Shown piece after piece: positions 3,279 to 27,006 of a stretch of DNA of 27,100 nt. Origin of the DNA: a virus. Position 1 is the stretch's first letter. Each line of letters begins with the position of its first letter. Position numbers and translations under genes: made by a program. Under the pieces are notes generated by a model that was given only the letters and a program-made list of their open reading frames with translations, was not told where the DNA came from and did not search any database. The stretch spans positions 1 to 27,100 of the IMG/VR virus record IMGVR_UViG_3300043395_001651. One strand, 5' to 3'.

Positions 3279-3294
3279 GCGAATTCGAATTCGT
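3279..3294. repeat. Dispersed palindrome, copy 1
   Basis: The perfect 14-bp core is CGAATTCGAATTCG (3280-3293). It is intergenic, at the left edge of direct-repeat unit A. Confidence 0.85.
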
Positions 3295-3300
3295 TCTTCG

Positions 3301-3525
3301 GTGCTGAGAAGGAGGAGTCTGGGAGGGGTCTGGAGTACCCCTCCAAAAGCAAGGATCTTCCTATGTGGCTGTCACCACAATTAGATAATCTAATAAGGGA
3401 GGAGGGGCGGGTAGCCACCCACCCAGCCCACGAAGGAAGGAAGATCGAAGCCACATGAACAATCTCTTCCGTAAAAATCTTCGCGCAGCGAATTCGAATT
3501 CGTTTCGCTCTTCGATCCTCGATCC
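3301..3525 (+). repeat. Imperfect direct repeat, unit A (origin-like region)
   Basis: This matches 3548-3770 in register at an offset of 245-247. Conserved blocks in order are GTGCTGAGA, AGGATCTxCCTATG, a 28-bp identical core starting TGTCACCACAATTAG (3370-3397), a GAAGG/AAGGAAG stretch, CCACA then AACAATCTCTTC, the palindrome at 3489, and a GATCC-containing tail. The segments between the blocks have diverged. Confidence 0.8.
3488..3503. repeat. Dispersed palindrome, copy 2
   Basis: The perfect 14-bp core is CGAATTCGAATTCG (3489-3502), inside unit A of the origin-like repeats and in register with copy 3. Confidence 0.85.
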
Positions 3526-3547
3526 AGCCTCGCTGAGCCTTCTCAGC

Positions 3548-3770
3548 GTGCTGAGACCCTCCTCCTCGAACCCCTCCACAGGAGTGCGTGAGAACATAGG
3601 ATCTACCTATGGTGGTGTCACCACAATTAGATAATCTAATAAGAGGGTAGAGCAGCCCAGCCAGCCCAGAGGGCGACCGAAGGGGGAAGGAAGCAGCCAC
3701 ACCAACAATCTCTTCGGCAACTTTTCGCACGCGACGAATTCGAATTCGTCGCTGCCGATCCTCTCGATCC
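3548..3770 (+). repeat. Imperfect direct repeat, unit B (origin-like region)
   Basis: This is the second copy of the unit at 3301-3525, with the same block order and the 28-bp identical core at 3616-3643. Here the core is preceded by a better inverted repeat (CATAGG/CCTATG at 3595-3611), and the palindrome in this copy is the longest perfect one in the window (22 bp, 3731-3752). Confidence 0.8.
3731..3752. repeat. Dispersed palindrome, copy 3 (longest perfect)
   Basis: This is a perfect 22-bp palindrome: the core ACGAATTCGAATTCGT with three further paired bases on each side. It lies in unit B, about 90 bp upstream of the primase start. Confidence 0.9.
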
Positions 3771-3838
3771 TAAGCGAGATCCTCGTTTGCACGAACCTCC
3801 GATCCTGGGTACAGAGTCAATGACGACAGGAGAACGTG

Positions 3839-5593
3839 ATGAGTGCAGGACGTGTGCGGGCCGATCTCGATTGGCTTCTCGTACCTTCGATCTACGCAAA
3901 GGTCTTCAAGCGCAGCCAAGAAGTGATCAGCCTTGTGCTGTCTGCTTCCCGCAGCGCGAAGGAGAAGGCAGCGAACGCTGCTGCTCTCCTCTACATCACG
4001 ACTGACTTCTGCCGACTCGTCGAGCAGGGCAAGCCCATTGATCGGTGCAGGGGCTACTACTCCAGCACGAAGTATCCCTTCCCGCTCGCGGACGGATCTC
4101 CCTTCATCGGGGATTGGCGCGCTCGCACGATCCTCTCCTCGCTGCAAGAGTCACTCGGGAAGGATCTCACGGTGGACAAGACTGCTTCATACGATGGCGC
4201 TGCTGGCTCGATCTACACGCTCACGGCGAATGGGATCGCGGTGCTTCGGCTCGTAGCGAAGCGCCTCGCGGACGAGGCAGTGGCCTATGGGATCGATCCT
4301 TCTCTGGCCGAGCCGAAGGTCATTCGGACTGAGTACTTCGCTCTCCCTGCTGAGGACATCGGCCATCGGAGCAAGCTCGGCATCTTCATTCGCTGCCCGA
4401 TCCACAGTGACGGGAAGGAGCGGACGCCCTCTGCAATCATGTTCGATGGTGGCTCACGCGCAGTCTACTGCTTCGCTTGCACGCGCACCATAGGGGGCTG
4501 GAAGCAAGAGGGCGGAACCTACTACCTGAGCTTGCTCCTCAATCCTACGATCCCGACCGCTCGTCGCACTAACGAGGCAGCGCCTCGCACCAACGAATTC
4601 GAATTCGTCCCGCTCACTTCTACGCAGTCTGAAGTCATGGCTGCCTTCGATTCCTATGCTGCCTGCGAGTCGCAGATCCCTGAGTACCGCACGCGCCTCG
4701 CGGCTGCGAAGTCCCTGGCTACGGTCGGGCGCGGCACGCACACTTCGCAGATGGTGGCGCGTGAGTTCGGTGATGGCAAGAAGGAAATCCGGGTCGTGGC
4801 GTGGCGTTCCGATCAGCGTCGACTTGGAGCGGTTCGGACGACGCTGCACAAGGTGGCTGGCAAGTCGGAGCCTAAGCTGCGCTACGCGACCCACGTCGAT
4901 CCTCTCGAGCAGATGGCGACGGCTTGGAGCAAGGTGGAGAAGTACGGGAACAATGAGAATTCAGACGAGTACATGACGCTCGCTGCTGCGCTCGAGTCGC
5001 TCGCCCCCGGCGTCGATCCTAAGACGAAGTACCCGGACGAGTACATCACGATCCACGACATGACGCACGACGACGAGACTCACCGCGATCTCAAGTTCAC
5101 AAGCAAGGAGGACGGAAGCGAGCAGATCAGCGTCCTCTACAAGCCCAAGAGCTTCCGTGCTGTGTCTGGGCAGTACATCCTGATTGACATTGACCACCTG
5201 ACCCGTCGCACGCACAGCCCGATGGCTGCCGATGGCAAGGAGATCGAGGCCAAGATGATCGAGGGATTCCGCTCCGCCCTTGCGTCCCACGCGGCCAGCG
5301 GGATGTTCTCTGGGCATGGCAGCGTCGTCGAGACCTCTAAGACTGGCATGCAGATCCTGTTGCAGCTCTCCCGCCCGCTGGTCACGCAGCATGCGCTGGA
5401 GTCCTTCTACGCTGACCCGCTGATCAAGCAGGCGATCATGTCGCTCGGGGAGGAGATGAGGAAGGTCATTGAGCGCGGAGGCGACGTCGACCCTGCGGTT
5501 CATACGGTCGGTCGTTACGCCCGCCTCGCGGGAACGACCCGGATCGACAAGGACGGCACCTTCTTCATCAGCCGCCTCGTAGCGATCTTCTGA
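3839..5593 (+). CDS. AEP-family primase with N-terminal zinc finger
   Basis: This encodes 584 aa. I place the start at ATG 3839, with AGGAG six bases upstream; a GTG three bases earlier is also in frame. Residues 186-214 hold a CHC2-like zinc motif (CPIH then CFAC), as in primases that read single-stranded DNA. The C-terminal half shows the three marks of archaeo-eukaryotic primases (PrimPol/RepB' type). These are a paired-Asp metal site in LIDIDH (D450, D452), an SGHG motif (491-494) followed by an alternating hydrophobic strand, and a D-rich segment leading to R-x-x-R-x-x-G-T and an Asp-Lys (about 549-571). It should synthesise primers for phage DNA replication. No DNA polymerase or helicase gene is visible, so host enzymes would be needed. 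A dispersed palindrome encodes NEFEFV at residues 252-257, between the zinc region and the catalytic part. The origin-like region lies just upstream. Confidence 0.8.
   Translation: MSAGRVRADLDWLLVPSIYAKVFKRSQEVISLVLSASRSAKEKAANAAALLYITTDFCRLVEQGKPIDRCRGYYSSTKYPFPLADGSPFIGDWRARTILSSLQESLGKDLTVDKTASYDGAAGSIYTLTANGIAVLRLVAKRLADEAVAYGIDPSLAEPKVIRTEYFALPAEDIGHRSKLGIFIRCPIHSDGKERTPSAIMFDGGSRAVYCFACTRTIGGWKQEGGTYYLSLLLNPTIPTARRTNEAAPRTNEFEFVPLTSTQSEVMAAFDSYAACESQIPEYRTRLAAAKSLATVGRGTHTSQMVAREFGDGKKEIRVVAWRSDQRRLGAVRTTLHKVAGKSEPKLRYATHVDPLEQMATAWSKVEKYGNNENSDEYMTLAAALESLAPGVDPKTKYPDEYITIHDMTHDDETHRDLKFTSKEDGSEQISVLYKPKSFRAVSGQYILIDIDHLTRRTHSPMAADGKEIEAKMIEGFRSALASHAASGMFSGHGSVVETSKTGMQILLQLSRPLVTQHALESFYADPLIKQAIMSLGEEMRKVIERGGDVDPAVHTVGRYARLAGTTRIDKDGTFFISRLVAIF
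4593..4608. repeat. Dispersed palindrome, copy 4 (in primase, encodes NEFEFV)
   Basis: This is a perfect 16-bp ACGAATTCGAATTCGT, in frame and keeping the primase open. It falls in a low-complexity linker between the zinc finger and the catalytic domain. Confidence 0.9.
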
Positions 5594-5629
5594 CAAGCTC
5601 GACGCCCTATCGCTTGACGGCACATTGAC

Positions 5630-5649
5630 GGACGAATTCGAATTCGTCC
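5630..5649. repeat. Dispersed palindrome, copy 5
   Basis: This is a perfect 20-bp palindrome with the core ACGAATTCGAATTCGT, in the 80-bp gap after the primase. Its end is about 10 bp upstream of the ribosome site of the next gene. Two TTGACG words lie just upstream, at 5614 and 5625, but neither has a good -10. Confidence 0.9.
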
Positions 5650-5673
5650 CTAACTTCTGGAGAGGAGAAGAAG

Positions 5674-6099
5674 ATGAGTAAGAAGAAGCAGACCTTCGGG
5701 ATTGAGGACGTGGCCACCAGCGGGCATGGATGCGAAGAACGCATTGTGACCGATGCCTCGGGTCGCATTGTGAACGATCCATTGGAGCGCCTTGTTTGCG
5801 ACTTCGAATCGCTCGAGGCCAGTATTCGATACGCCTTCGAGGTGTATCTCATGGATAAAGAAGGTGAGCCGATGCCAGCGTCACTCACGCCAGCCCAGGC
5901 GAAGTGGATGAAGGAAGGGATGAATGAAGTCGCAACAAAGATCGTTGATGTTGCCGAATCACTCGAAGCGATGAGTGACATTCTGGTTCAATGGGCGTGC
6001 AGACGCAATCCCGATCTTCGGGAGTTCGCTGGCAGGAAGATCCCCCGCCCCGGAGATCCCGAGTGGGAGGAGATGAAGGCTTTGAGCGAGAAGGACTGA
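5674..6099 (+). CDS. Hypothetical protein, 141 aa
   Basis: The ATG follows GGAGAGGAG, giving a strong ribosome site. The product is acidic: a polar N-terminus (MSKKKQTFGIEDV), a central helical region with many Glu and Ala (about 40-105), and a C-terminal RRNPDLREFAGRKIPRPGDP stretch that may bind nucleic acid or protein. There is no membrane segment, zinc motif or family I recognise. It sits between the primase and a strong promoter, after palindrome copy 5, and is probably an early gene. Confidence 0.7.
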   Translation: MSKKKQTFGIEDVATSGHGCEERIVTDASGRIVNDPLERLVCDFESLEASIRYAFEVYLMDKEGEPMPASLTPAQAKWMKEGMNEVATKIVDVAESLEAMSDILVQWACRRNPDLREFAGRKIPRPGDPEWEEMKALSEKD

Positions 6100-6120
6100 G
6101 AAGCGTCAGGCGGACAATAC

Positions 6121-6149
6121 TTGACGCTACGCCGTGGAAGTGCTATATA
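6121..6149 (+). promoter_or_regulatory. Strong sigma70-type promoter
   Basis: TTGACG (6121-6126), a 17-bp spacer, then TATATA (6144-6149). Five of six -35 bases and four of six -10 bases match consensus at the optimal spacing. It points into a 135-nt segment that ends in an intrinsic terminator, not directly into a large gene. Confidence 0.75.
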
Positions 6150-6155
6150 AAGAGT

Positions 6156-6290
6156 AAGCTCATGGCGAGCTTGGCTGCTCTCCTGTCGTCAACTCGAAGC
6201 AGCCCGAGGCGGTGTTCTCTATCCTCGTAAAATAAAGTCCCCGCCTCCTCAGGAACCCCCTCCCACGATGCGAGGGGGTTCCGCTTTTTT
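6156..6290 (+). ncRNA. Candidate ~135-nt phage small RNA (or leader with a 22-codon ORF)
   Basis: This is bounded by the promoter at 6121-6149 (start predicted near 6156) and the terminator at 6252-6290. Inside, GAGGCGG and CCGCCTC can pair around a 31-nt loop, just upstream of the terminator stem. A 22-codon frame (ATG 6162 to TAA 6230, MASLAALLSSTRSSPRRCSL...) is present but has only a weak ribosome site, so it may be an unused frame or a leader peptide. No known RNA family is recognised, and it lacks tRNA features. Confidence 0.5.
6252..6290 (+). terminator. Intrinsic terminator
   Basis: A perfect 11-bp stem GGAACCCCCTC / GAGGGGGTTCC with a 9-nt loop, followed by GC and six T residues. 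This is a textbook rho-independent terminator for the rightward strand. Confidence 0.9.
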
Positions 6291-6341
6291 GGCAACTCGT
6301 AAAAACGATGTTATGTACTCCATGAGCGAGGAGAAGAAACG

Positions 6342-7091
6342 ATGGGAGAGACGCTGGTTCCTGTGATTGAGACGGAGGGGAAGGACATTCACTTCCTGCG
6401 AATGAAGCTCGTGGTTCGAGCCTTCGCGCATCCTGGTGCGCCGCCTGCCCTGCCTCACCTGTGTCGCGTCGGCGCACCCACATTCTTGGATGTGGCTGGG
6501 TACTCGATCCAACGGAAGGAGTTCGGGCCGAATCATCTCTATCGGCTTCTGCTGTGGGCCGAAGATGGCATTGGCGGATTCTCCCCTGAGACCTCTGCGA
6601 AGGTGGAGGCTTTGATTGTGGAGGCTGCGGCTCGCACGATGTACGTCAGTGACTCTCGGAGTCCTGGCCCTGTGCTGATTCGGAAGGATATCTGGACTCA
6701 CAGCGCCGCCTTCGACTGCAACCAGAACGCCGCATTCGATCTTGCGGAGGATAAGTCGTTGCGCCTGCCCAACTGGCTGCACTACCTCCAGATGGCTTCG
6801 ATCCAGCTCTGCATGCGCTTGAACCCTACGGCGTGGATGGGCATTGACTTCGAGTCGAGCAAGGAATTGGAAGCCATCTACGCTGGCCAGTCTTTGAGCG
6901 GCATCCCGCTCAGATACCGGTACAGCATTCGGAGCGTGAATCCTTCGCCGGATGGCAAGGTCTCGTTGGTGAGCTTCTCGGGAGAGTACAAGGTGCTGGG
7001 GGAACTCGACTGCAAATTCAGCAAGCCCTACCTGAAAGAGTGGAGCGACGAGACTGCCAAGCTCCTGCGTGAGGTTGGGAAGATCGAGTAA
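6342..7091 (+). CDS. Hypothetical protein, 249 aa
   Basis: The ATG has GCGAGGAG about eight bases upstream. The protein is soluble, of mixed alpha/beta character, with no membrane segment and no catalytic signature I recognise. Notable stretches are KLVVRAFAHPGAPP near residue 30, a Trp/Leu-rich WLHYLQMASIQLCMRL segment near 145 and a C-terminal acidic-basic helix. It forms a one-gene unit, with a terminator immediately upstream and another immediately downstream. A weak promoter-like pair, TTGGCA (6289-6294), 17 bp, TATGTA (6312-6317), could drive it; otherwise read-through from 6121 would. An accessory role such as host takeover or defence evasion is possible but unsupported by any motif. 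Confidence 0.7.
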   Translation: MGETLVPVIETEGKDIHFLRMKLVVRAFAHPGAPPALPHLCRVGAPTFLDVAGYSIQRKEFGPNHLYRLLLWAEDGIGGFSPETSAKVEALIVEAAARTMYVSDSRSPGPVLIRKDIWTHSAAFDCNQNAAFDLAEDKSLRLPNWLHYLQMASIQLCMRLNPTAWMGIDFESSKELEAIYAGQSLSGIPLRYRYSIRSVNPSPDGKVSLVSFSGEYKVLGELDCKFSKPYLKEWSDETAKLLREVGKIE

Positions 7092-7121
7092 CAGGGCTGA
7101 CCCAGATCGTCCTACGCGATG

Positions 7122-7149
7122 AGCGGAGCCTACCGGGTTCCGCTTTTGT
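7122..7149 (+). terminator. Intrinsic terminator after the 249-aa gene
   Basis: A nine-pair stem AGCGGAGCC / GGTTCCGCT (one G-T pair) with a 5-nt loop TACCG, followed by a T-rich run TTTTGTTG. It begins about 30 bp after the stop codon. Confidence 0.75.
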
Positions 7150-7196
7150 TGCTCCTGCGGTTTGCGTTCCTCGTCATTCAAGGCTACGTCAACAGT

Positions 7197-7250
7197 AGAC
7201 CCATTGCCATTCACTCTCATGTGTCGTCTCCTATCATCGGCAATGGGTCT
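7197..7250 (+). other. Perfect 12-bp inverted repeat with 30-nt loop
   Basis: AGACCCATTGCC (7197-7208) pairs exactly with GGCAATGGGTCT (7239-7250), followed by TTCCCTTTC. The loop is large for a terminator. It could be a second terminator, an RNA-processing site or a structured small RNA. It lies between the terminator at 7122 and the promoter at 7329, in a 286-bp gap without a gene. Confidence 0.7.
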
Positions 7251-7328
7251 TTCCCTTTCAGGTATCGGTGGGTGTCGTCTGTTTCTGCGCTGCGCGCATG
7301 AAGTGGAGAGGGAATCTGCCCTCGCTGG

Positions 7329-7357
7329 TTGACGGAAATCTCGGCATTGGGTATACC
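7329..7357 (+). promoter_or_regulatory. Sigma70-type promoter of the HNH gene
   Basis: TTGACG (7329-7334), 17-bp spacer, TATACC (7352-7357). It shares its -35 and spacing with the promoter at 6121. The predicted start, near 7364, leaves only a short leader with the ribosome site GAGGAGAG before ATG 7378. Confidence 0.7.
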
Positions 7358-7377
7358 AATTGTACGAGGAGAGGGCC

Positions 7378-7929: not shown

Positions 7930-7932
7930 GCG

Positions 7933-8307
7933 ATGGAAGAGGCACGCTGGCAGCATGTGCGGATCGATCTACTCCTCGCTGAGGCGAAGGCGATGCTGCT
8001 CTTGGATCGGAGCATGATCGACGAGTGGGACGACGAGATGCTGCTCTCGCTTGAAGCGGCTCGCTCCATGCCTGTGGACGCGCCGTATGAGGAGCGAGAG
8101 AAGGCGGAGTGCAGGATCTTGAATGCTTGGGTTCATTCCAAGCCTCGGAAGATGCTGGTCTACACGAAGGACGCAGCCGAGATCGTGACCCAGCGACGCG
8201 ACGACGAATTCGAATTCGTTTCCTTCGTGGACTTGGTCGCTCCCGAGATGATCTCTGAGGTGTGTCGCTCCCTTCTTCCCGAGGCATGGAGTCAACGAGC
8301 TTTGTGA
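7933..8307 (+). CDS. Hypothetical acidic protein, 124 aa, carrying a palindrome-encoded DEFEFV
   Basis: The ATG lies three bases after the preceding stop, with GGGGAGTGAG as ribosome site, so it is in the HNH transcription unit. It is helical and acidic, with Leu/Met/Glu-rich segments at about 5-60 and a basic-aromatic NAWVHSKPRKMLVYTK near 65-80. Palindrome copy 6 encodes DEFEFV at about residues 91-96, after which a hydrophobic-acidic tail follows. No family is recognised. It is the last gene before the long hairpin and the packaging operon. Confidence 0.65.
   Translation: MEEARWQHVRIDLLLAEAKAMLLLDRSMIDEWDDEMLLSLEAARSMPVDAPYEEREKAECRILNAWVHSKPRKMLVYTKDAAEIVTQRRDDEFEFVSFVDLVAPEMISEVCRSLLPEAWSQRAL
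8204..8219. repeat. Dispersed palindrome, copy 6 (encodes DEFEFV)
   Basis: A perfect 16-bp ACGAATTCGAATTCGT in the same reading frame as copy 4 in the primase, so it encodes the same peptide except for the first residue. Confidence 0.9.
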
Positions 8308-8321
8308 GCAAAAGTGAGAGA

Positions 8322-9007: not shown

Positions 9008-9010
9008 GCG

Positions 9011-10395: not shown

Positions 10396-10411
10396 ACGAA
10401 TTCGAATGCGT
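10396..10411. repeat. Dispersed palindrome, copy 7 (degenerate)
   Basis: ACGAATTCGAATGCGT, one base from the consensus, in the 82-bp gap between terminase and portal and about 37 bp upstream of the TATACT at 10448. Confidence 0.75.
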
Positions 10412-10460: not shown

Positions 10461-13256
10461 ATGAATGCGATCCTGAATCTCCTCCGTGGCCTGATCTCCG
10501 CACCTGCCTCGCCTCCCGCGACAGGTGCGCTCTCTGGCTTTCCAGTGTCGCAGGGATTCGACGCGCATGCCTCGATGGCTGCATTCGCGGCTTTCCCGTG
10601 GGTTCGTGCGTGCATTGACGCGATCTCCACGGATCTGACTGGTCTTCCGCTTCGAATCGTTCGTGGATCTGGAGATCAGGCGGAAGTCGTGGACGACATC
10701 CTGCTCCGCAACCTGCTCGAGAACCCGACCTCATGGCAGGGGCGTGAGGCTTGGGAGGGAGAGATCCTTCGGCAGCTCCTCCTGTCAGGCAACGGATACG
10801 CGCTCCCCGTGGGTGGATCTACCCCTTCGACGGTTCCGCTCATGCACTGCGAGTCAGTAAGCATCATTCCTGGCCCGTTCGGTGGCCCAGCAGGGTACAC
10901 CTACCGAAGCGTTGGTGGAGGTGAGACAACCTACGCGCCCGAGGCTGTCATTCACTGGAGGCTGGCCGCATGGGAGAACGGCCCTCAGGGACTCATTGGC
11001 GAGGGTCTGATTCGTGCGTTGCAGCCCGATCTGAATGCAGACCTGAATTCAGCACGCCTCTCCGCTCGAGCGGCTCGCCAGGGACGCCCTTCTGCGGTGT
11101 TCAAGCCGAAGGATGCTTCTGGAGTCGACGCGCAGATCGCACAGAAGGTCAATCAAGCCTATGCGAAGATCCTCGAGGGTGGGAGCGCCAGCATGGTTCT
11201 CCCTGGCAGCTTCGATGTAGACTTCCCCGCATTCACTCCCCGCGACCTTGAGTTCGCAGAGCAGCGAAAGCTGACAAGGGAGACGGTTCTCGCGGCGTTC
11301 GGCGTCCCGCCGACCCGTGTTGGTTTGCCGACCGCTAACTACGCTACGAGCCAGCAGCAGAACACGGTCTACTGGCAGGGGCTGATTGGGCTGGCCCGCC
11401 TGATCGACGCTGGCCTGACAAAGATCGCTCGGAAGTTCTCTCCCGATTACTCGATCCGTCATGACTTTTCTGCGGTAGAGGCGCTTCAGGAGGCGCGCAC
11501 AGCGCGATTGGATCGTGTGCAGAAGTGGGTAGACCTCGGGGCATCGCCAGCCCAGGCTGCGGCTTATGAGGGCTTCGACGATGCTCCTGTCGCTACTGAG
11601 GCGGCGACGGCTCAGCAGTCTGCACGTCGGTCGGCTTTCCCAGCGGCGACGAGTGCATTGGAGTGGCTCAGCACGGCGCGATCCGTGAATTCTCCCGAGA
11701 AGCAGCTTCGCGTGAATCGTCGACTGCAACAGACAGAGCTTGCGCTCGATCCCGAGAATCCTTCCCTGGAGGACAGCGACTACGCGCAGCCGCCTCGTGC
11801 GTACTGCGAGCAATTGAAGGCGGATTACCCTTCGATCTGGCGAGCTGGCGGGAACGAGCGTGGCCCTGAGGCGTTCATCCTCTGGGGCAAGTACCTTGAA
11901 GGCGACCGGAGCGAAGTGGTCTTGAATTGGGTGAAGGAGCGTGAGGCGTGGGCTGCTCGTCATTACGAGGACGGGGATGCCTTCGTTGGTTCCGACCCTG
12001 AGAATCCGACGCTGTCGAACATCGGCGGGGTGGTGGCGTGGCTGAAGTGGGGCGTGGTTGGGCAGCTTGGGTGGGCGCGCATGCGGGATCTGCTCGAGCG
12101 CCTGAAGGACTCCATTGATGCCGATACCTCACTCGGTGCGAGCGAGTACCTCCAGCCTCCATTCGACTACTGCGTGAGGCTGCGCGAGGAGTACCCTGAC
12201 ATCTGGAGTTCAGCGACGGACGAGAAGTTCTCACTGTGGGAGCAGTTCGAGAAGGGCGTAAGGTCGAAGAAGGTTCTGGCCTGGGTGAAGGAGCGTGAGG
12301 AGTGGGCGAAGGAAGGCTCCATTGGTTGCCTGCCCGAGGACGAGGAGAATCCTTCCCTGCCTACCATGACTCGCTTGATCACTTGCCTGAAGTGGGGCGT
12401 CGTGTGCAGCGAGGGCTGGAAGCGCATGGAGGCGTGCATTGAGAAGTGCAAGCTGAGCGTGGACAAGATCAGCCCTGAGGCAGACCTCGCGGAGGCGTGG
12501 GGCGTGTGGCGCAACTCGATCCACGCTCCGTTGGAGAAGGAGATCGGGATCGCTATGCGGAAGGTTCTGGCTCGTCAATTGCAGGGCGTCCTTGCAGCGA
12601 TCCCCGACATGAACGAGGTCGATCCTGACGTTGACAAGCTCGCGGCGATCTTCCCTGCTGCGACGCGCAAGATCCTGTCAGTCTCGATGAGCAAGGTGTA
12701 CGATCCCGCCTGCGCTCGGATCTGGGCATCGTCCCTCGCCTCCATTGGAGTGGAGACTCCTCGATCCGACGAAGTCGAATTCGTCGAGCCGTCTACCTCG
12801 ACCCGCGAGGCGATGTTGAAGGAGCTTGCGGCTCGGGTCAACACGACGACCGCTGACGCGATCCACCTGATGCTGATCACGGCGAGGAAGGAGGGATGGA
12901 GCCACGAGGATCTCTCAGCGAAGCTGACTGCGAGCAAGATCTTCTCACCCTCGCGGAGCGTCCCGCTTGCTAAGCAGGAGGCGACGAGGCTGTGTGCGAG
13001 CGTTGCGCTTGCGGCTTGGAAGTCTACGGGGAAGCAGATCAAGAAGGTCTGGGTATCGGCAGACGAGGCAGGCGAGAACCCGCACCACGCTTCCCTCCAC
13101 GGGGCTTCCGCTTCGCTCGACGGGAATTTTCGAATCCAGTCTGGACAATTTGAAGGACATGAGGGATCGCACCCTGGCTCGTTCGGAGAGATCCAACTAT
13201 GTATGAATTGTCGGTGCATGATTGCTCCGTCAATTGCTGAAGGGGAGGAGGCTTAA
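10461..13256 (+). CDS. Portal protein fused to a MuF-like head morphogenesis domain
   Basis: This encodes 931 aa, more than twice the usual size of an HK97-type portal. Residues 1 to about 390 match the portal family: helical clip and stem with PWVRACIDAISTDLTGLPL near the start, LLLSGNGYAL, and the RETVLAAFGVPPTRVG region near 275-290. Residues about 432-670 are an insert made of two related ~110-residue units, each with YxQPPxxYC, a conserved WVKEREAWA-type motif, a PTL/PSL segment and LKWGVV. The final part (about 840-925) resembles the Mu gpF C-terminal domain: KKVWVSADEAGENPHHASLHG, a Gly-rich turn, and NCRCM near the end. MuF proteins attach to the portal inside the prohead, so covalent fusion makes sense. 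Palindrome copy 8 encodes DEVEFV at about 771-776, before the MuF part. It overlaps the protease gene by one base (TAATG). Confidence 0.85.
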   Translation: MNAILNLLRGLISAPASPPATGALSGFPVSQGFDAHASMAAFAAFPWVRACIDAISTDLTGLPLRIVRGSGDQAEVVDDILLRNLLENPTSWQGREAWEGEILRQLLLSGNGYALPVGGSTPSTVPLMHCESVSIIPGPFGGPAGYTYRSVGGGETTYAPEAVIHWRLAAWENGPQGLIGEGLIRALQPDLNADLNSARLSARAARQGRPSAVFKPKDASGVDAQIAQKVNQAYAKILEGGSASMVLPGSFDVDFPAFTPRDLEFAEQRKLTRETVLAAFGVPPTRVGLPTANYATSQQQNTVYWQGLIGLARLIDAGLTKIARKFSPDYSIRHDFSAVEALQEARTARLDRVQKWVDLGASPAQAAAYEGFDDAPVATEAATAQQSARRSAFPAATSALEWLSTARSVNSPEKQLRVNRRLQQTELALDPENPSLEDSDYAQPPRAYCEQLKADYPSIWRAGGNERGPEAFILWGKYLEGDRSEVVLNWVKEREAWAARHYEDGDAFVGSDPENPTLSNIGGVVAWLKWGVVGQLGWARMRDLLERLKDSIDADTSLGASEYLQPPFDYCVRLREEYPDIWSSATDEKFSLWEQFEKGVRSKKVLAWVKEREEWAKEGSIGCLPEDEENPSLPTMTRLITCLKWGVVCSEGWKRMEACIEKCKLSVDKISPEADLAEAWGVWRNSIHAPLEKEIGIAMRKVLARQLQGVLAAIPDMNEVDPDVDKLAAIFPAATRKILSVSMSKVYDPACARIWASSLASIGVETPRSDEVEFVEPSTSTREAMLKELAARVNTTTADAIHLMLITARKEGWSHEDLSAKLTASKIFSPSRSVPLAKQEATRLCASVALAAWKSTGKQIKKVWVSADEAGENPHHASLHGASASLDGNFRIQSGQFEGHEGSHPGSFGEIQLCMNCRCMIAPSIAEGEEA
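12767..12786. repeat. Dispersed palindrome, copy 8 (in portal-MuF, encodes DEVEFV)
   Basis: CGACGAAGTCGAATTCGTCG, a 20-bp palindrome with one mismatched pair, in the same frame as copies 4 and 6. Confidence 0.85.
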
Positions 13257-15426: not shown

Positions 15427-15444
15427 AACGAAGTCGAATTCGTT
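15427..15444. repeat. Dispersed palindrome, copy 9
   Basis: AACGAAGTCGAATTCGTT, an 18-bp palindrome with one mismatched pair, in the 208-bp gap between the capsid and the next gene. Confidence 0.85.
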
Positions 15445-16012: not shown

Positions 16013-16624
16013 TTGGCACTGATCACGACGACCGAAGCGAAGGAAGTCCTTCTGGACGTTCAGGGGGCGACGACCGACGACCTGATCTCGTCATTGATCA
16101 CGACGGTGGGGCGGTTGATTGCGAATTACCTGGGCTACCCGCCAGCAACGGCAGGCGCTCAGGCGACGGCTGAGAGTTCGAGCTACACCCTCTACCTCGA
16201 CGGGCCAGGGGGGCGGGAGCTTTACATTCCCGTCTACCCTGTGACTGCGATTGCTTCGATCTACGACTCAGTGGATCGTCGCTACGCTGCCTCCGACCTT
16301 GTGTCGTCCTCGGACTACACCTTGATCGAGGGGCAGCATGGCTTGGTAGAGCTTGATTGGGACGCTCAGCATGGCGCTTGGTCGACCGCACGCAGGGCGA
16401 TCAAGGTGACTTGCACCGCAGGCTGGTCGACGATCCCAGATCCGATCAAGCAGGCAGCCAAGCTGGCGGTCAAGCATCATCTCCAGCTTCGGAACAAGCT
16501 CGGAAAGACGACCGAGACCCAGGCTGGAGGGAACACCTCCTACGTCGAGCCGACTGAGCTTCCAAAGGAAGCGAAGCTGATGCTCAATCGCTACCGGCTT
16601 CCTACGGTCATGGTTCCGGTATGA
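16013..16624 (+). CDS. Head-tail connector (gp6-like adaptor)
   Basis: I chose TTG 16013, with GGAGA about eight bases upstream; it gives MALITTTEAKEVL, which fits the family start. The 203-aa product begins with a helical pair (TTDDLISSLITTVGRLIANYLGYPP), followed by a beta section with ELYIPVYPVTAIASIYDS and a C-terminal helix (IKQAAKLAVKHHLQLRNK) near a flexible end. This is the layout of HK97 gp6/SPP1 gp15-type adaptors that form a ring under the portal. Its position after the head genes and before the tail completion gene agrees. Its stop overlaps the next ATG (ATGA). Confidence 0.75.
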   Translation: MALITTTEAKEVLLDVQGATTDDLISSLITTVGRLIANYLGYPPATAGAQATAESSSYTLYLDGPGGRELYIPVYPVTAIASIYDSVDRRYAASDLVSSSDYTLIEGQHGLVELDWDAQHGAWSTARRAIKVTCTAGWSTIPDPIKQAAKLAVKHHLQLRNKLGKTTETQAGGNTSYVEPTELPKEAKLMLNRYRLPTVMVPV

Positions 16625-17145
16625 CGCTCACGCTCGACCAATTCAGGGAGAACCTCGAGCAGCTCGCGGACGACTTCAGGGAGCAGATGAAGGAAGCCCT
16701 GAAGCCTGTCGCATTGGCTGCCGAGCTTCGTGCGAGGGCGAACGCCACGAAGGTCTTGAAGCAGCGGTCGGGCGATCTTCGAGACTCGATCCATTCATCG
16801 ATCAAGTCCACGTCTGACGGAGCGGAGATCCTCCTGCGAGCGGACGTGCCTTACGCAAGAATCCATGAGGAGGGGGGGATCATCCGGCCCAAGCGTGGTC
16901 GGTATCTAAAGATCCCCGTGAATGGCACGTCCTACTCGGGCGCAGACCTTCACTTTCAGTCCTCCAAACGTGGCGGTGGTGTCCTGATCTCGTCAGATGG
17001 CCAGATCCGGTACATCCTGAAGGAACAAGTCAAGATTCCGAAGCGGCCCTTCATGGCTCCCGCATTGACTGACGACGGAGAGACGAAGGCTGGGATCGAG
17101 GATGCGGCGGTAGAGCTTCTGACGAATTCGATTTCGTCGACGTAG
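16621..17145 (+). CDS. Tail completion / virion morphogenesis protein (HK97 gp10- or Mu gpG-like)
   Basis: This encodes 174 aa with an ATGA overlap to the connector gene. Family features are an N-terminal helix, ADVPYARIHEEGGIIRPKRGRYLKIPV in the middle (Tyr-Ala-x-Ile-His followed by a basic loop), and the late VKIPKRPFMAPAL, the usual (I/V)PxRPFM signature near the end. Such proteins link connector and tail. The last seven residues, TNSISST, are encoded by palindrome copy 10, which runs across the end of the gene. The same peptide recurs inside the amidase. Confidence 0.75.
   Translation: MTLTLDQFRENLEQLADDFREQMKEALKPVALAAELRARANATKVLKQRSGDLRDSIHSSIKSTSDGAEILLRADVPYARIHEEGGIIRPKRGRYLKIPVNGTSYSGADLHFQSSKRGGGVLISSDGQIRYILKEQVKIPKRPFMAPALTDDGETKAGIEDAAVELLTNSISST
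17122..17137. repeat. Dispersed palindrome, copy 10 (encodes TNSISST at a C-terminus)
   Basis: ACGAATTCGATTTCGT plus CGACG. The whole 21-bp stretch from 17122 to 17142 is identical to 26518-26538. It reads in a different frame from copies 4, 6 and 8. Confidence 0.85.
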
Positions 17146-18370: not shown

Positions 18371-19321
18371 ATGGCAACGCAAAAGGGTTACAACACCTCG
18401 GTCTCCTTCGGTGTCGAGGTAACAGCAGGCACGGAAGTGAGCCGCACGGTTCGCAGCCGTGTCTCATCCGTCTCTTTGCGGGCGAGTCGTAATTCGGAGC
18501 GCGTCCCGCACCTCGTACCATCGAGCGGCTCTCGTGTTGCGCGCTCCATGTTCACCTCCTCGGTCGACGTGAACGGCAGCGTTGAGATGCCTGCTGCGTA
18601 TGCAGGCAACGGGCTTGGGCTGCTGCTCGAGGCGGCGCTCGGTTCGGTGGCAACGACGGGATCTGGCCCGTACACCCACACGTTCACCCCCGGAGCAAGC
18701 CTGCTCTCGATGAGCGCTGCTGTCGAGCGTGGCGTAGGGGCCAGCCTGGGCGACGAGGAGTTCTACGGCCTGAAGGTCAACACCTTCGAGCTGTCCGTCT
18801 CCGTTGGCCAGACGATGCAGTGCAAGCTCGACCTGATCGGCATGACCTCTGGTGCGCGTGGGAGTGACTCGCCGCCCGCTCTTGGCACCTACCTCCCGAT
18901 CCTGCACAAGCACGCTGGGCAGCTCAGCTACAACTCTGTTGACTACAAGATTTCGAGCTTCGCGCTCAGGGTCAACAACAGCCTCGCCCGCCTCGACGAG
19001 CTTGGCTCCGAGTACTCCTCCGAGCCTGAGCCGACCGACTTCCAGAGCATCGAGATCGAGTGCGAGCTGGTGGCTCGCTCCGACGCGCTCTACACGGCCC
19101 ACAAGGCGCAGACCGCGAGCGACGCTGTGATCACCTTTACAAACGGGGACGACTCGCTGGAGATCACCGTGTATAACGCAGAGATCACCTCGTATGAAGA
19201 TCCGATCTCCGATCCTGGCGTGATCAAGCAGAAGGTGACATTCACCGGTCTCGGGGATGATACCAATCATGGCTTGAAGGTTGTCCTGATCAATGATAAC
19301 TCTTCCTCAAGGACGGCTTGA
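18371..19321 (+). CDS. Major tail tube protein
   Basis: This encodes 316 aa with an AAAGGAG ribosome site. It begins MATQKGYNTSVSFGVEVTAGTE, the opening strand common to many siphovirus tube proteins. It continues with a beta-rich chain: FTSSVDVNGSVEMPAAYAGNGLGLLLEAALG, then PYTHTFTPG, a pattern of tube proteins where repeating SxDVxGxxxxP and YTHTFTP segments occur. The C-terminal half (about 215-316) is a second similar beta domain and could be an outer decoration. It should polymerise around the tape measure. Position before the chaperone and tape measure genes is as expected. Confidence 0.85.
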   Translation: MATQKGYNTSVSFGVEVTAGTEVSRTVRSRVSSVSLRASRNSERVPHLVPSSGSRVARSMFTSSVDVNGSVEMPAAYAGNGLGLLLEAALGSVATTGSGPYTHTFTPGASLLSMSAAVERGVGASLGDEEFYGLKVNTFELSVSVGQTMQCKLDLIGMTSGARGSDSPPALGTYLPILHKHAGQLSYNSVDYKISSFALRVNNSLARLDELGSEYSSEPEPTDFQSIEIECELVARSDALYTAHKAQTASDAVITFTNGDDSLEITVYNAEITSYEDPISDPGVIKQKVTFTGLGDDTNHGLKVVLINDNSSSRTA

Positions 19322-20070: not shown

Positions 20071-20096
20071 CGGGAACGAAGTCGAATTCGTTCCCG
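20071..20096. repeat. Dispersed palindrome, copy 11 (longest, one mismatch)
   Basis: A 26-bp inverted repeat pairing at 12 of 13 positions, centred on ACGAAGTCGAATTCGT and flanked by CGGGA / TCCCG. It lies in the 102-bp gap between the chaperone and tape measure genes, close to where visual GC skew weakens or changes. Confidence 0.9.
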
Positions 20097-22282: not shown

Positions 22283-22306
22283 TGCTCCCCACCCTCGCTC
22301 CCAGGA

Positions 22307-22322
22307 ACGAATTCGACTTCGT
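22307..22322. repeat. Dispersed palindrome, copy 12
   Basis: ACGAATTCGACTTCGT, the exact reverse complement of the core in copies 8, 9 and 11, in the 58-bp gap after the tape measure gene and just upstream of the next ribosome site. Confidence 0.85.
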
Positions 22323-22340
22323 CGTCGTCGGAGGATTCTA

Positions 22341-23222
22341 ATGGCACAAGCAGCCTTCTACTGGTATCCCGGCGGCTCTTCTGCCCTCGACAAGATCGCC
22401 CTGAATTGCCGAATCACCCGCGCTGAGCCGTTCGAGCTGGCTCAAGCCGAGGATTCCTACTCAGGGGCGCAAAACTTCGTCCGATCTTTCGCGGGTACGC
22501 GCCGCAGGGTGCGAATCGCCATCGACCGAGTGAGCCTCCTGACCTCCAACGGGCGGGACGACTACAGGCGCTTGCAGAACCTCGTCTCGCACTTGAAGGC
22601 AGGCGGAGCAGTAGGGTTCACCACCGACACAACGAAGGCCGTGGCGTCGTACCCAACGGGTGGCTTCGGTGTCGGGTATCAGTACGCGATTCATGCTGGC
22701 AATGCCTTCTCGGCTTGGGAAAGCAGCGCCACCCTCTCAAGCGGTGATGAAGTCGTAATCGAGACCGAGCCGATGATCGGTATCTCCGAGTGGCACAAGC
22801 TCTCGGCCTACTCAAGCACCCAATTCACATTCGCTACCGACAAGACCCGCTACAACATGGCCAACGCGAACGCCATGATCCGCTGGCACCGATTCTGGCC
22901 TGCTCTCCGACTTCCCTCGGATCAGCTTGACGCTCCCATTCTTACCGACGAGCATGGGATCGGGTGGAGCTTCGAGGCTGAGCTTGAAGTGGCAGCCGAG
23001 ATTTATTTGGTTCCAATGCTCTCCCAGTCTATGGAAATTGGCAACCCTCCAGCGTCCCTGGCTCTTGGGACGACTCTTGACCTTCCTGGGGGCAGCCAAA
23101 ACAAGATTGGTCTTGAACGACTGCTCTCAAGAGTCCGGTCAAATCCCAGGCCGGGGCAAATGAGTAGGTACGAGGTAGAGGACGTGCTGGCTGGCTCTAC
23201 GGTCAATGGTGGGAGGCGCTAA
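22341..23222 (+). CDS. Tail tip protein, probable distal-tail component
   Basis: This encodes 293 aa from an ATG with GGAGG six bases upstream. It is beta-rich with many Arg, Ser and aromatic residues, opening MAQAAFYWYPGGSSALDKIAL and continuing with RSFAGTRRRVRIAIDRV near residue 50. Gly-rich loops and a long final segment (LLSRVRSNPRPGQMSRYEVEDVLAG) follow. Its place right after the tape measure, before the hub-like protein, is that of the distal tail (Dit) or an equivalent tip ring. The stop overlaps the next ATG by one base (TAATG). No diagnostic motif confirms Dit. Confidence 0.6.
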   Translation: MAQAAFYWYPGGSSALDKIALNCRITRAEPFELAQAEDSYSGAQNFVRSFAGTRRRVRIAIDRVSLLTSNGRDDYRRLQNLVSHLKAGGAVGFTTDTTKAVASYPTGGFGVGYQYAIHAGNAFSAWESSATLSSGDEVVIETEPMIGISEWHKLSAYSSTQFTFATDKTRYNMANANAMIRWHRFWPALRLPSDQLDAPILTDEHGIGWSFEAELEVAAEIYLVPMLSQSMEIGNPPASLALGTTLDLPGGSQNKIGLERLLSRVRSNPRPGQMSRYEVEDVLAGSTVNGGRR

Positions 23223-24763
23223 TGGCTTGGAAGTCGGAGTTCCTTTCGCTCATCGGGTCGAGCCAGCTTCGGCTCGTCTACGCGGTTCGTGTCGTCCATA
23301 TCGGTGATACTCCTGGCGTTGCTGGGTACGTCGCAGCATCGCACGCTCTCCTGGGCGACCCGATCATCGCCCCGCAGGGAGTGGTTGTCAACGGCCCCAG
23401 GATTACTCCTGGCGCTTGGTCAACGACTCTCGGAACGGCGTCCGTCAAGCTCGATGGGGATCTCAGGGATCTGAAGCGATCCATGACAAGGGGAACCTTC
23501 GTCGAGGTTCTCGCCGGGGATGTCATGTGGTCACTCGACGCCTTCGAGGTGATCTTCGCAGGGCAGGTGTCAAACATCAGCACGACCGGACGAAACTCTG
23601 GAATTCTCGAGCTTCGTGACCTGATCAGCGCACTCCGTTGTCGACCGACCGTCACAACAAGCAAAGTCAGGTTCTTCTTCAACTACACGGCAGATACGAC
23701 TATCGACACTTCGCCCTACGTCATTGGAGATTCAACCCTGACCGTCCTCGACACGACCGGCTTCGAGCGGGAGACTGGCGGAGTCGGTGCGATCCGAATC
23801 AATAACGGGACGGACGATCCATTCGTCTTGCGCTTCGACGGCACGACAGCCACCGAATTCGCCATCGACAATCCGGCGGACGAGAACCACGGGACAATCA
23901 GGGCCAATGCCGCCATCGGTTCGGATGTCGAAGCTCTCATGTTTCTGGAAAACCACCCAATCACGGCCACGCTCAAGTTCCTCACCTCCACAGGAACGGG
24001 AACCAACGGAGACTACGACACCCTTCCAGAATCCTGGGGCTTCATGCTTCCCGCAAAGTGGGTCGACTTCGAGGATGCAATCGCCTTCAGGACGCTCTCA
24101 GACCCGGATCTCAAGTACGAGTTCATGCTCGACACCTACTCCGAAGATCCGCTCGGCTGGTTGACCTCCGCGCTCAGTCGAGGAGGGTTCTTCGTCACGA
24201 CTCGGCAGGGGCTGTTGACCGTCCGGGCTGGAATGATGTCCACGTCAGCCGTGTCTGGAGTCTCAGATGTCATGCACATTGACGACCGAGACATCTCCTC
24301 TGCCTCATGGCAAGCCTTCGACCCAGATCAGGAGTCGGAGTACGTCCAGATCGCCGCCTATGGCTCGGACTACTCCGGTGGGTGGGGCATGGCTGGGGAG
24401 TACGGAAACCTTGAAGACCCTGCGTCTCTTCCTGTGTCCTACTACGCAGAATATGATCTCACCGATCTCATCTACACGCGCACACATGACTCTCTGGAGG
24501 GGATCGTTGGCAGGATCTGGGAAGCAGTGCAACGGGTGCCGGAACGGTTCACCTTCACGCTGTCGGGGCTGCGCGCCGCAACACTGGCCCCAGGAGACTT
24601 CATTCGGGTCTCGAGCCAGCGCATCTCGGGCCGTCTGGAGCGGACGCTCGACGGCCTTGATGATTGTAGACTCGTAGTCCTCCAAGTTTCGGTGAATTGG
24701 GGCGCTGCCCAAGTTACAATTGGAGGAGCAGTCTACGCAACAACCTCGGGGGCTTTCGCTTGA
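23222..24763 (+). CDS. Tail hub / baseplate-like protein, 513 aa
   Basis: The start ATG shares a base with the preceding stop, with GGGAGG upstream. It begins with beta segments (SSQLRLVYAVRVVHIGD) and a middle section with LRDLKRSMTRGTFVEVLAG and NSGILELRDLISALRCRPTV, as in proteins forming the central tail hub. A linker of about 60 residues with Thr, Asp and Gly follows, then a large C-terminal part with EYVQIAAYGSDYSGGWG and RISGRLERTLDGLDDCRLVVLQVSV. This composition and position (after the Dit-like gene, before the fibre) fit a gp27/Tal-like hub, but no catalytic peptidoglycan-degrading motif is visible. Confidence 0.6.
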   Translation: MAWKSEFLSLIGSSQLRLVYAVRVVHIGDTPGVAGYVAASHALLGDPIIAPQGVVVNGPRITPGAWSTTLGTASVKLDGDLRDLKRSMTRGTFVEVLAGDVMWSLDAFEVIFAGQVSNISTTGRNSGILELRDLISALRCRPTVTTSKVRFFFNYTADTTIDTSPYVIGDSTLTVLDTTGFERETGGVGAIRINNGTDDPFVLRFDGTTATEFAIDNPADENHGTIRANAAIGSDVEALMFLENHPITATLKFLTSTGTGTNGDYDTLPESWGFMLPAKWVDFEDAIAFRTLSDPDLKYEFMLDTYSEDPLGWLTSALSRGGFFVTTRQGLLTVRAGMMSTSAVSGVSDVMHIDDRDISSASWQAFDPDQESEYVQIAAYGSDYSGGWGMAGEYGNLEDPASLPVSYYAEYDLTDLIYTRTHDSLEGIVGRIWEAVQRVPERFTFTLSGLRAATLAPGDFIRVSSQRISGRLERTLDGLDDCRLVVLQVSVNWGAAQVTIGGAVYATTSGAFA

Positions 24764-24765
24764 CC

Positions 24766-26208
24766 ATGCGTACAACGTCCAAGTCAGGAGTAGGTCGCCG
24801 TGCGGGAGGGCTGACCGTCGACCGCGTCAACGGAACCCTGCGTGTAGCTCCGCCAGGAACCGTCCTTCTCTTCTTCGACGCCACAATGAACAAGCTCCGC
24901 TTCGTCGACGAAGACGGGAACCTCACCACCCTTCGGGCGGGAGGGGGCGGGGTCTCCGTTCACTCAGACCTCTCAGGGCTGAGCTGGTCGACGGGAGGCC
25001 ATATCGGGACGGCAGATAGCCTCGCGGGCTTCAATGGCTCAGGGGCTGCGACCTACTACCAGATCGGCGTCGACGTGCAGGCGTACAACGCTGGCCTGAC
25101 CAGCCTCGCCACGAAGGACGGCGTAGCAGGCTTGCCTTACGTCACCTCGGCTGAGACTTGGAATACCGCCACCCTGGGCGATCTCGCCGTGTCAGGAGGC
25201 GCATGGCAAGTCACGAAGGCGCGTGGCCTGCTCGAAGCTGGCGGCACCACCCTCACAATGGGCGCAGTAGCGGACGCAAGGCTCCTCGCAAGGAATGGCA
25301 CCGACATCGGGGGCGTGCAGGTCTCTACAGGGCTGTCAATGGCGGCAGGCGCGCTCTCCGTCGATACCAGCACCATCGCCACGCTTGCCGCCGTTGCCGC
25401 AGGATACCAGCCGCTTGACGCCGATCTCACGGCCCTCGCAGCCCTTGCATCGACCGGCATCATGGCGCGCACAGCGGCCAATACCTACGCCCTAAGGACG
25501 CTCCAAGGCGGAGCGGGCGTTACCATCTCCAACGGCGACGGGGTCTCTGGCAATCCTACGATCTCATTCGCAGGTGGAACCGGGCAGGACGACGATCCCA
25601 CCACGGCGTATACAATTTCAATCACGCCCTCCAACGCCACCCTGTTCAGCCGGGACGGCGGCATTACCGTCCGCTCGGCGTCAGCGGGCAACCTCGCCAC
25701 AAGGCGCGCAACCAACCTAACAGGGGCGTTCGCTGACTTCTACACGACCAACATGAACGTCTTTCAGACCCGCTGGTCGTACTCAGGGTCGGCATCGATC
25801 CGCGTTCGGTGGGTCACTGGCTCCTCGGTCGCGGCGACATGCAGGTATAAATTCGGTTTTACCGGCGGCGGATTGACATCCACGGACGCTGAGACCGCCC
25901 TGCGCGACACGGTCATGTTCCGCTACGTCACCGGTCTGGGCCATACAAAGTGGATGGCCTACTCCCAGAACGCCTCAGGATCGGAAGAAACTGACACCGG
26001 CATCACGGTATCAGCCAACACCGAGTATCTCCTCGAGATCCAATTGAATGCCACGCAAGCGGTCTTCTACATCAATGGAGTCTCCGTTGCGACCCATTCG
26101 ACCTATAAGCCTTCTTCCTCCCAAGACCTCGGCTTCCAAGGCGGCGTCTACGCCACAGGAAAGACGATCTACGTTGTCGGCGCGAGATTCAACCTCACTT
26201 GGAGCTAA
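24766..26208 (+). CDS. Tail fibre / receptor-binding protein
   Basis: This encodes 480 aa from ATG 24766, three bases after the preceding stop; the ribosome site is weak (GGGGG), so reinitiation is likely. The N-terminal 60 residues contain VNGTLRVAPPGTVLLFFDAT and the basic MRTTSKSGVGRRAGG. The middle carries the fibre repeat signature, YQPLDADLTALAALAS followed by MARTAANTYALRTLQGG and SGNPTISFAGG. The C-terminal (about 350-480) reads as a jelly-roll, lectin-like domain (EYLLEIQLNATQAVFYINGVS and GKTIYVVGARFNLTW), likely the part that touches the host surface. Confidence 0.8.
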   Translation: MRTTSKSGVGRRAGGLTVDRVNGTLRVAPPGTVLLFFDATMNKLRFVDEDGNLTTLRAGGGGVSVHSDLSGLSWSTGGHIGTADSLAGFNGSGAATYYQIGVDVQAYNAGLTSLATKDGVAGLPYVTSAETWNTATLGDLAVSGGAWQVTKARGLLEAGGTTLTMGAVADARLLARNGTDIGGVQVSTGLSMAAGALSVDTSTIATLAAVAAGYQPLDADLTALAALASTGIMARTAANTYALRTLQGGAGVTISNGDGVSGNPTISFAGGTGQDDDPTTAYTISITPSNATLFSRDGGITVRSASAGNLATRRATNLTGAFADFYTTNMNVFQTRWSYSGSASIRVRWVTGSSVAATCRYKFGFTGGGLTSTDAETALRDTVMFRYVTGLGHTKWMAYSQNASGSEETDTGITVSANTEYLLEIQLNATQAVFYINGVSVATHSTYKPSSSQDLGFQGGVYATGKTIYVVGARFNLTWS

Positions 26209-26215
26209 ACGATCC

Positions 26216-26416
26216 ATGCCATCCGTCCTCGGTCAATACTGGCGCAACCAAGATCACCCGCTCGGAAGGATGATCACCCGTGAGTACACGGATGAATCCA
26301 TCACTGACGACGACGGACTGCCGATCAAGTGGGTAGAATTCGGAACCCCGTCCCTCACCTACGCCTATCAGGAGCTTGCAGAGCGGGGCTGGGAATCTAT
26401 GGAGGCACCTCAATGA
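26216..26416 (+). CDS. Small hypothetical protein, 66 aa
   Basis: The ATG at 26216 follows the fibre stop by seven bases, with GGAG about 11 upstream. It is acidic and aromatic (MPSVLGQYWRNQDHPLGRMITREYTDESITDDDG...), ending with ELAERGWESMEAPQ. No family is recognised. Position between fibre and amidase, with an ATGA overlap to the latter, suggests a fibre-assembly chaperone or a lysis-cassette partner. Confidence 0.6.
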   Translation: MPSVLGQYWRNQDHPLGRMITREYTDESITDDDGLPIKWVEFGTPSLTYAYQELAERGWESMEAPQ

Positions 26417-27006
26417 CACCGATCTGCGTGATCTCGGTCGGCCATGCTGGCAGGACTCCTCCTGACTACGGCTCCTCCTTCGAAGGCTTCCGCGAGCTGG
26501 ACGGGATTCGAGTCTATACGAATTCGATTTCGTCGACGCTCCGCTCCCTCGGATGGCGGGTCGAGGTGCGTGAGGGAAGCTACTCAGCGGCCAAGTCTGA
26601 GGCTGACAAGCTCGGCGCGACCGTCTACATCAACGCCCATATCAACGCAGGCATGGGAGGAAGGGACTCGCAGCGAGGGGAGATCTTCTACGACCACAGG
26701 AGCAAGCCTACCAACGGTCTGGCACTCGCAGCCAGCATCGCTGACAAGCTCGACGACTGGACTCCCTTTCCCGTCTACCCTAAGTCGTGCAGACCCGACA
26801 CGAACGGCAATCCGAGGGACGGTGACTACTCCGAAGCCTTCGGCTGCATCAACGGAGTCCGCGCCGTCGCCGTCTGCACAGAACCCTTCTTCCTCGACGG
26901 CCAGTATCGAGCTGACCTCAGGACGAACGCAACGCTCGAGAAGATTGGCAAGAGCATTGCAGACGGGGTACACGCATGGCTTTTGTCTCGGCAAAAGACT
27001 ACCTAA
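26413..27006 (+). CDS. N-acetylmuramoyl-L-alanine amidase (endolysin), Amidase_3-like
   Basis: This encodes 197 aa from ATG 26413 with GGAGG seven bases upstream, overlapping the previous stop. The zinc-amidase layout is clear: H11 in SVGHAG, E28 in GFRELDG, H76 in INAHIN, and the catalytic Glu E157 in VCTEPFFLD, matching the HxxG...E...H...E order of Amidase_3 enzymes. It cleaves the bond between muramic acid and the peptide stem for host lysis. No signal peptide or wall-binding domain is seen, so it depends on a holin. Palindrome copy 13 encodes TNSISST at residues 36-42, between the first two zinc ligands. Its last ten codons and stop lie in the 127-bp repeat. Confidence 0.88.
   Translation: MTPICVISVGHAGRTPPDYGSSFEGFRELDGIRVYTNSISSTLRSLGWRVEVREGSYSAAKSEADKLGATVYINAHINAGMGGRDSQRGEIFYDHRSKPTNGLALAASIADKLDDWTPFPVYPKSCRPDTNGNPRDGDYSEAFGCINGVRAVAVCTEPFFLDGQYRADLRTNATLEKIGKSIADGVHAWLLSRQKTT
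26518..26533. repeat. Dispersed palindrome, copy 13 (in amidase, encodes TNSISST)
   Basis: ACGAATTCGATTTCGT followed by CGACG, the same 21 bp as copy 10, in frame within the amidase after its second zinc ligand. Confidence 0.85.

Follow-up and report, generated by a model that had tools for sequence, protein, structure and literature searches.

The 27,100-nucleotide viral DNA studied here (positions 1-27,100 of IMG/VR record IMGVR_UViG_3300043395_001651; the window below, meaning the whole of this stretch) carries 13 copies of a palindromic motif, and the same motif recurs throughout a second phage genome, IMGVR_UViG_3300043395_002432 (139,496 bases; G001 below). The palindromes are real: in these two unrelated phage genomes they exceed chance by orders of magnitude and are evenly spaced. 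They very probably form an array of protein-binding sites under selection for spacing. The explanation that we prefer overall, with a probability of roughly 0.37, combines such an array with a reader, a protein of 585 amino acids (aa) common to both phages, and with a function of the sites as stations for replication.

The window was searched with the 16-mer ACGAATTCGAATTCGT, allowing up to three mismatches. All of the 13 matches had zero or one mismatch, whereas shuffled window sequence gave a mean of 0.05 matches and a maximum of 1. Since no match had two or three mismatches, the family is sharply bounded. The sites are as follows, without strand assignment.

Site 1, 3279..3294: GCGAATTCGAATTCGT; origin-like intergenic region
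Site 2, 3488..3503: GCGAATTCGAATTCGT; origin-like intergenic region, closing the first 152-nt repeat unit
Site 3, 3734..3749: exact; perfect palindrome of 22 bp closing the second 152-nt repeat unit, about 100 bp ahead of the primase-like gene
Site 4, 4593..4608: exact; within the primase-like gene
Site 5, 5632..5647: exact; perfect palindrome of 20 bp, intergenic
Site 6, 8204..8219: exact; within open reading frame (ORF) 7933-8307
Site 7, 10396..10411: one mismatch; between the genes for the terminase large subunit and the portal
Site 8, 12769..12784: one mismatch; within the portal/head-morphogenesis gene
Site 9, 15428..15443: one mismatch; intergenic, 3' of the capsid gene
Site 10, 17122..17137: one mismatch; final codons of ORF 16621-17145
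Site 11, 20076..20091: one mismatch; 26-bp palindrome with one mismatched pair, intergenic
Site 12, 22307..22322: one mismatch; intergenic
Site 13, 26518..26533: one mismatch; within the amidase gene 26413-27006

An earlier note on this DNA, made from its letters, had described a dispersed family of 13 palindromes and proposed shuffled sequence as a check on it. The same 13 places were recovered here, and the check gave the 0.05 against 13 stated above. The centres agree throughout, and five of the starts given in that note (3731, 5630, 12767, 15427 and 20071) are those of longer palindromes in which the 16-mer begins at 3734, 5632, 12769, 15428 and 20076. Where the note counted three perfect copies, the exact 16-mer is present in four (3734, 4593, 5632, 8204); its 26-bp copy with a single mismatch is site 11. 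The assumption of a 25-kb circle also stands: positions 1732-1858 are identical to 26974-27100 (127 bp), and this identity gives a putative circle of 25,242 bases as judged from sequence. The 1.7-kb tail outside the circle (window 1-1731) contains no palindromes, as had been claimed. This tail joins the circle through the 127 identical bp, as would be seen if the downstream region were common to the phage and to a second variant or a relative of it (a lariat-shaped assembly), and ends in another gene than the amidase gene that precedes the join on the circle.

The evidence that the motif is not a peculiarity of one genome comes from G001. A scan of IMG/VR for the exact motif gave eight copies in G001, three in another contig, G005, and scattered singletons elsewhere. 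At up to two mismatches the counts were 68 and 25, and the reversed control pattern gave none. With a weight matrix 98 sites are found in G001, at a cut-off for which the expectation is 2, and hardly any sites have intermediate scores. G005 is 99.99% identical to G001 over 62 kb, the contigs coming from two metagenomes, and is the same phage; the independent genomes with the motif are thus two in number. No further phage with several copies came from a wider scan of IMG/VR with a degenerate pattern, and the motif was lacking in the tail-protein relatives in IMG/VR, in the Actinomycetia phage DSL-LC01 and in the Haemophilus phage HP1.

G001 is a T4-like contractile-tail phage, with a tail sheath, an S77 prohead protease, a B12-dependent ribonucleotide reductase, a T4-type portal and a major head protein; its replication genes include a DnaG-type primase, a helicase and a DnaB-like helicase. 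The window phage is of a different type. At the DNA level the two have in common only a 690-bp tail-gene stretch at 94% identity, the motif and short weak matches. The stretch is a minor tail protein gene (window 18548-19237; G001 136990-137679, in L169), of which IMG/VR holds at least 155 other, more distant protein relatives. Such similarity between very different phages points to recent exchange and hence to a common or overlapping host. Transfer of the motif by this route was rejected, because the sole recently exchanged segment (window 18548-19237) holds no site. An all-against-all protein comparison of the window with G001 gave two common families: one is the tail protein, at about 80% identity, the other the protein of 585 aa.

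The weight matrix from G001 defines the full motif as RACGAATTCGAATTCGTY, an 18-bp palindrome of 26 bits. The variable positions are placed symmetrically, each half-site (RACGAATTC) being variable at its outer base and at bases 4 and 6, and changes in one half are independent of those in the other (Fisher P 0.15-0.64). A hairpin would need covarying halves, while a duplex site bound by two subunits would not. The motif thus behaves as a duplex site for a protein dimer, which opposes the single-strand initiation hairpin that the earlier note had considered; RNA or single-stranded DNA hairpins in general are ruled out by the lack of covariation. The analysis supports the note's suggestion that a DNA protein binds these sites, the more so as an unrelated phage has both the motif and its spacing. 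Two of its other suggestions fit poorly: in-gene copies are common and even spacing is kept, unlike what recombination linkers at module borders would give, and about 98 copies in G001 do not suit a packaging site. The note knew of no described phage element with this sequence, and our literature search for the sequence gave nothing relevant either.

Several other origins of the motif were rejected. Chance is ruled out by the number and spacing of sites in both phages. A library or adapter artefact (EcoRI linkers) is ruled out by the degeneracy of the copies, by their different reading frames and even spacing, and by their occurrence in two contigs of two metagenomes. The hexamer GAATTC outside the sites is found at expectation, with 9 copies against 8.3 in the window and 51 against 45.7 in G001, which rules out avoidance or enrichment of EcoRI-type restriction sites. 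The same unbiased GAATTC counts argue against a methylation or restriction motif of the HIP1 type, multiplied by a DNA methyltransferase or by repair bias. Such an origin would agree with a palindromic, iterated motif and with the N6/N4 methyltransferase encoded by G001, but 18 bp far exceeds the length of methylation sites and mutational bias would not give even spacing, so that we consider it very improbable.

The distribution of the sites is informative in two respects, their spacing and their relation to genes. On the window circle the gaps between sites have a coefficient of variation (CV) of 0.56 against 0.90 for random placement (P 0.02), in accordance with the regular spacing that had been noted before; when the origin cluster, the three sites of the repeat-rich gap, is counted once, the CV is 0.37-0.38 (P 0.0006-0.001). 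In G001 the 85 sites found at up to three mismatches have a gap CV of 0.53 against 0.98 for random placement, and none of 20,000 simulations was lower. Only 2 gaps are below 500 bp, where 22 are expected, and the largest is 4.7 kb. The 98 weight-matrix sites have a mean spacing of 1.4 kb, a CV of 0.49 (random placement, 0.98) and a largest gap of 3.8 kb against 7.3 kb expected. The evenness in G001 is unchanged under a null model that preserves intergenic bias. Across both phages the site intervals are about 1.4-2 kb.

Even spacing would also fit partition, tethering or compaction, in which a ParB/Noc/SlmA-like dimer of phage or host organises, segregates or protects the genome. A contiguous palindrome of 16-18 bp with half-sites of 8-9 bp is the established format of parS and Noc sites, and G001 encodes a ParB-like protein. 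However, this protein matches phage ParB-like nucleases and is encoded beside a methyltransferase, a common non-centromere context; the window proteins scanned gave no ParB match, and ParB systems generally need few sites. We therefore regard this explanation as rather unlikely.

With respect to genes, the sites prefer gaps and constrain DNA rather than protein. In the window, 8 of the 13 centres are intergenic while 8.2% of the circle is non-coding (P 2e-6), which bears out the gap bias claimed earlier, and without the origin gap 5 of 10 centres remain intergenic (P 9e-5). In G001 the exact copies are mainly intergenic and the degenerate copies mainly in genes, as expected if a DNA motif competes with coding. 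Fourteen of its 85 sites abut or overlap stop codons (2.4 expected), the motif's own RA often ending a TRA stop. Copies inside genes use each of the three reading frames in G001 (25/24/11) and two of them in the window, which argues for a constraint on DNA and not on protein. In the primase-like gene, the single gene that can be compared, the site is at 4593 in the window and at 118643 in G001, in different codons, so that density rather than particular places seems to be maintained.

The bias to gene gaps and gene ends recalls stoperators, many dispersed sites at which a repressor halts transcription, as in the cluster A mycobacteriophages. As many as 30 stoperators have been found in one cluster A phage, a similar number per genome (PMC6550527). 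Yet stoperators are asymmetric 13-mers held in a single orientation to transcription, and the present sites are palindromic with equivalent half-sites. Moreover, the sites in G001 are mostly within genes and still evenly spaced, G001 is T4-like and no sign of lysogeny was seen in it, the scanned window proteins gave no repressor match, and no repressor homologue is common to both phages. A stoperator-like function is accordingly improbable.

If the sites are bound by a dimer, which protein binds them? The 585-aa protein is the sole DNA-acting protein detectably common to both phages, and for this reason a duplex-binding primase or replication protein is the best lead. Its features in the window are the following.

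3836..5593, + strand: candidate reader, 585 aa; N-terminal winged helix, DnaG-like CHC2 zinc finger and C-terminal domain with primase-like acidic motifs recognised by eye
3836..4330, + strand: N-terminal domain, 165 aa; predicted winged helix (predicted local distance difference test, pLDDT, 80.5; predicted template-modelling score, pTM, 0.80)
4394..4480, + strand: zinc finger CPIH...CFAC, invariant in both phages

The protein is 41% identical to the product of G001 117267-119201. In both phages a site lies immediately upstream of its gene (window 3734, G001 119234), and the triple cluster of the window is located in the repeat-rich gap that precedes it. The structure prediction for the N-terminal domain is a confident one, and its fold matches are nearly all MarR/PadR winged-helix regulators, each of them weak. 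MarR/PadR winged helices are dimers that bind palindromes of similar size. The zinc finger gives a weak match to Pfam Zn_ribbon_DnaG (E 0.056), and over about 35 aa that of G001 shares 63% identity with a TOPRIM-type primase from an unrelated phage. Positions of the C-terminal domain that are invariant in both phages (DxD, SKxGxQ, D and RLxG) recall, by eye, archaeo-eukaryotic primases (AEP). The AEP label of the earlier note was unconfirmed by Pfam, PHROGs and PDB searches; of the features of the protein, only the winged helix and a zinc finger resembling that of DnaG have support. Taken together, the chance that the 585-aa protein reads the palindromes is slightly short of even.

Searches for homologues of this protein in PHROGs, Pfam, PDB, the phage and plasmid collections and 119 Actinomycetota genomes gave none. 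In IMG/VR the only relative was that of G001, in scans that used short conserved peptides and may miss distant relatives. Among 50 phage records, mostly chosen via the tail gene, the protein was likewise found in G001 only and the motif in none of the other fetched loci. L340 was rejected as a source of a reader homologue because what matched there was a TOPRIM-type primase, and of this the zinc finger alone.

In the mechanism that we propose, the palindromes form an array of duplex sites for a protein dimer, and selection keeps every stretch of the genome near a site. The reader would be the 585-aa protein, whose predicted winged helix could bind the 18-bp site as a dimer. In the most speculative step, the bound protein with its DnaG-like zinc finger would act in replication at these stations, making primers or allowing restart at set positions 1.4-2 kb apart. 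Okazaki fragments of bacteria are usually of this length. The main origin would be the triple cluster at 3.3-3.7 kb, with direct repeats before the reader gene. This origin-like region (3352..3749, + strand) consists of two 152-nt direct repeats, 3352-3503 and 3598-3749, which are 72% identical and each contain ATTAGATAATCTAAT and one site; their conserved block is GTCACCACAATTAGATAATCTAATAAG, which includes a near-perfect AT-rich palindrome. The repeats are absent from G001. A replication role of the array is possible, although we hold it only tentatively. The more specific form, in which a winged-helix zinc-finger dimer of the primase type starts DNA synthesis at hard-wired stations every Okazaki-fragment length, is doubtful.

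Several observations weigh against this proposal. The PDB fold matches of the N-terminal domain are weak, with none at E <0.2, the 585-aa protein gives no AEP or PrimPol profile match, and its full-length structure model is unusable (pLDDT 40). G001 also encodes a DnaG-type primase and helicases, so that the protein is not required there as the sole primase. A small common protein, diverged beyond detection, may exist, and the independent genomes that bear the motif number only two. Finally, the host uptake sequences carried by phage HP1 (17 in 32 kb, CV 0.51) nearly match the present arrays in density and equal them in evenness, and even spacing alone therefore does not indicate replication.

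The case of HP1 makes a host-read motif a serious rival. Here the motif would be a mark that a host sets on its own DNA, serving self-recognition or natural transformation, and would be present in its phages as well, as the uptake signal sequence is in HP1. Both of the present phages show the pattern of uptake sequences, an even spacing at about 0.5-1 sites per kb. In addition, two unrelated phages with a common tail gene have the motif in common, and the stop-codon association of the G001 sites is in keeping with the terminator links proposed for uptake sequences, whose even spacing round the genome is significant (PMC1939737). That spacing was once taken as a sign of replication, repair or compaction, and its cause is disputed (PMC1939737). 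A host-read motif predicts a chromosome full of copies, whereas a scan of genome contigs showed no genome with many copies among the matches listed. Fifteen genomes with a chance copy did not have the motif repeated, and about 758 genomes, from the Actinomycetota, the class of a Paraburkholderia genome (G023) and the phyla of a Balneolales (G025) and an Anaerolineales genome (G019), were without enrichment. Known uptake sequences are also shorter and non-palindromic. On balance we judge this explanation unlikely. A weak hint to the host comes from the ribonucleotide reductase of G001, the closest phage match of which is in an Actinomycetia-assigned phage, followed by mycobacteriophages.

Some further features of the two genomes may be recorded. 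The B12-dependent ribonucleotide reductase gene of G001 (L168:13762-16671) aligns to phage homologues in two pieces with 71% covered, which suggests an intein or other insertion. An RNA repair system is encoded in L169:7330-9945 as a single protein of 871 aa, in which a Hen1-like domain is joined to methyltransferase and Pnkp-ligase domains. The ParB-like protein gene lies beside the N6/N4 DNA methyltransferase gene in L167:2326-5453, amid structural genes. In the window, the portal/head-morphogenesis fusion gene contains a 26-nt sequence twice, at 11928-11953 and 12282-12307 (96% identical, 354 bp apart).

Few genomes are known to us in which recognition sites are distributed evenly over the whole length. 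The two phages, one of 25 kb and the other T4-like and of 139 kb, have almost nothing else in common, yet both maintain this 18-bp palindrome at similar intervals, and the one common protein with a predicted DNA-binding domain is an obvious candidate reader. The old question why a genome needs a site every kilobase or two thus becomes a direct binding experiment. If the sites are priming stations, the lagging strand would be programmed by sequence, unlike in any replisome known to us.

Among known systems, the DNA uptake sequences (USS/DUS) carried by HP1 resemble the present sites in density (about 0.5 per kb) and CV (about 0.5). They differ in being asymmetric, 9-12 bp long and present in the host chromosome too, while the present motif is an 18-bp palindrome for which the genomes scanned include no motif-bearing host. 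The parS, Noc and SlmA sites are, as is well established, perfect palindromes of 12-18 bp that are multiple and bound by dimers; their sequences are different, the present array is far denser, and no ParB, Noc or SlmA was found in the window. The stoperators of L5/Bxb1-type mycobacteriophages share the tens of dispersed sites per genome and the bias to gene gaps, but they are asymmetric, have one orientation and bind a monomeric repressor (PMC6550527, PMC9283540), whereas the sites described here are palindromic and the two phages have no common repressor. HIP1 of cyanobacteria (GCGATCGC) is likewise a highly iterated palindrome, but it is only eight bases long, belongs to host chromosomes and is linked with GATC/CGATCG methyltransferases (PMC4390886), in contrast to an 18-bp, phage-borne motif. 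The site-specific plasmid primases ColE2 Rep and RSF1010 RepB' resemble the role proposed for the 585-aa protein, in that a protein of the primase type having a domain for duplex DNA would direct priming to a fixed sequence; they use one or two origin sites as compared to 13 to about 98 sites round the genome. Within the broad kind of dispersed iterated recognition sites, what is new, and unusual, is that perfect symmetry goes together with even spacing and that unrelated phages share the sites.

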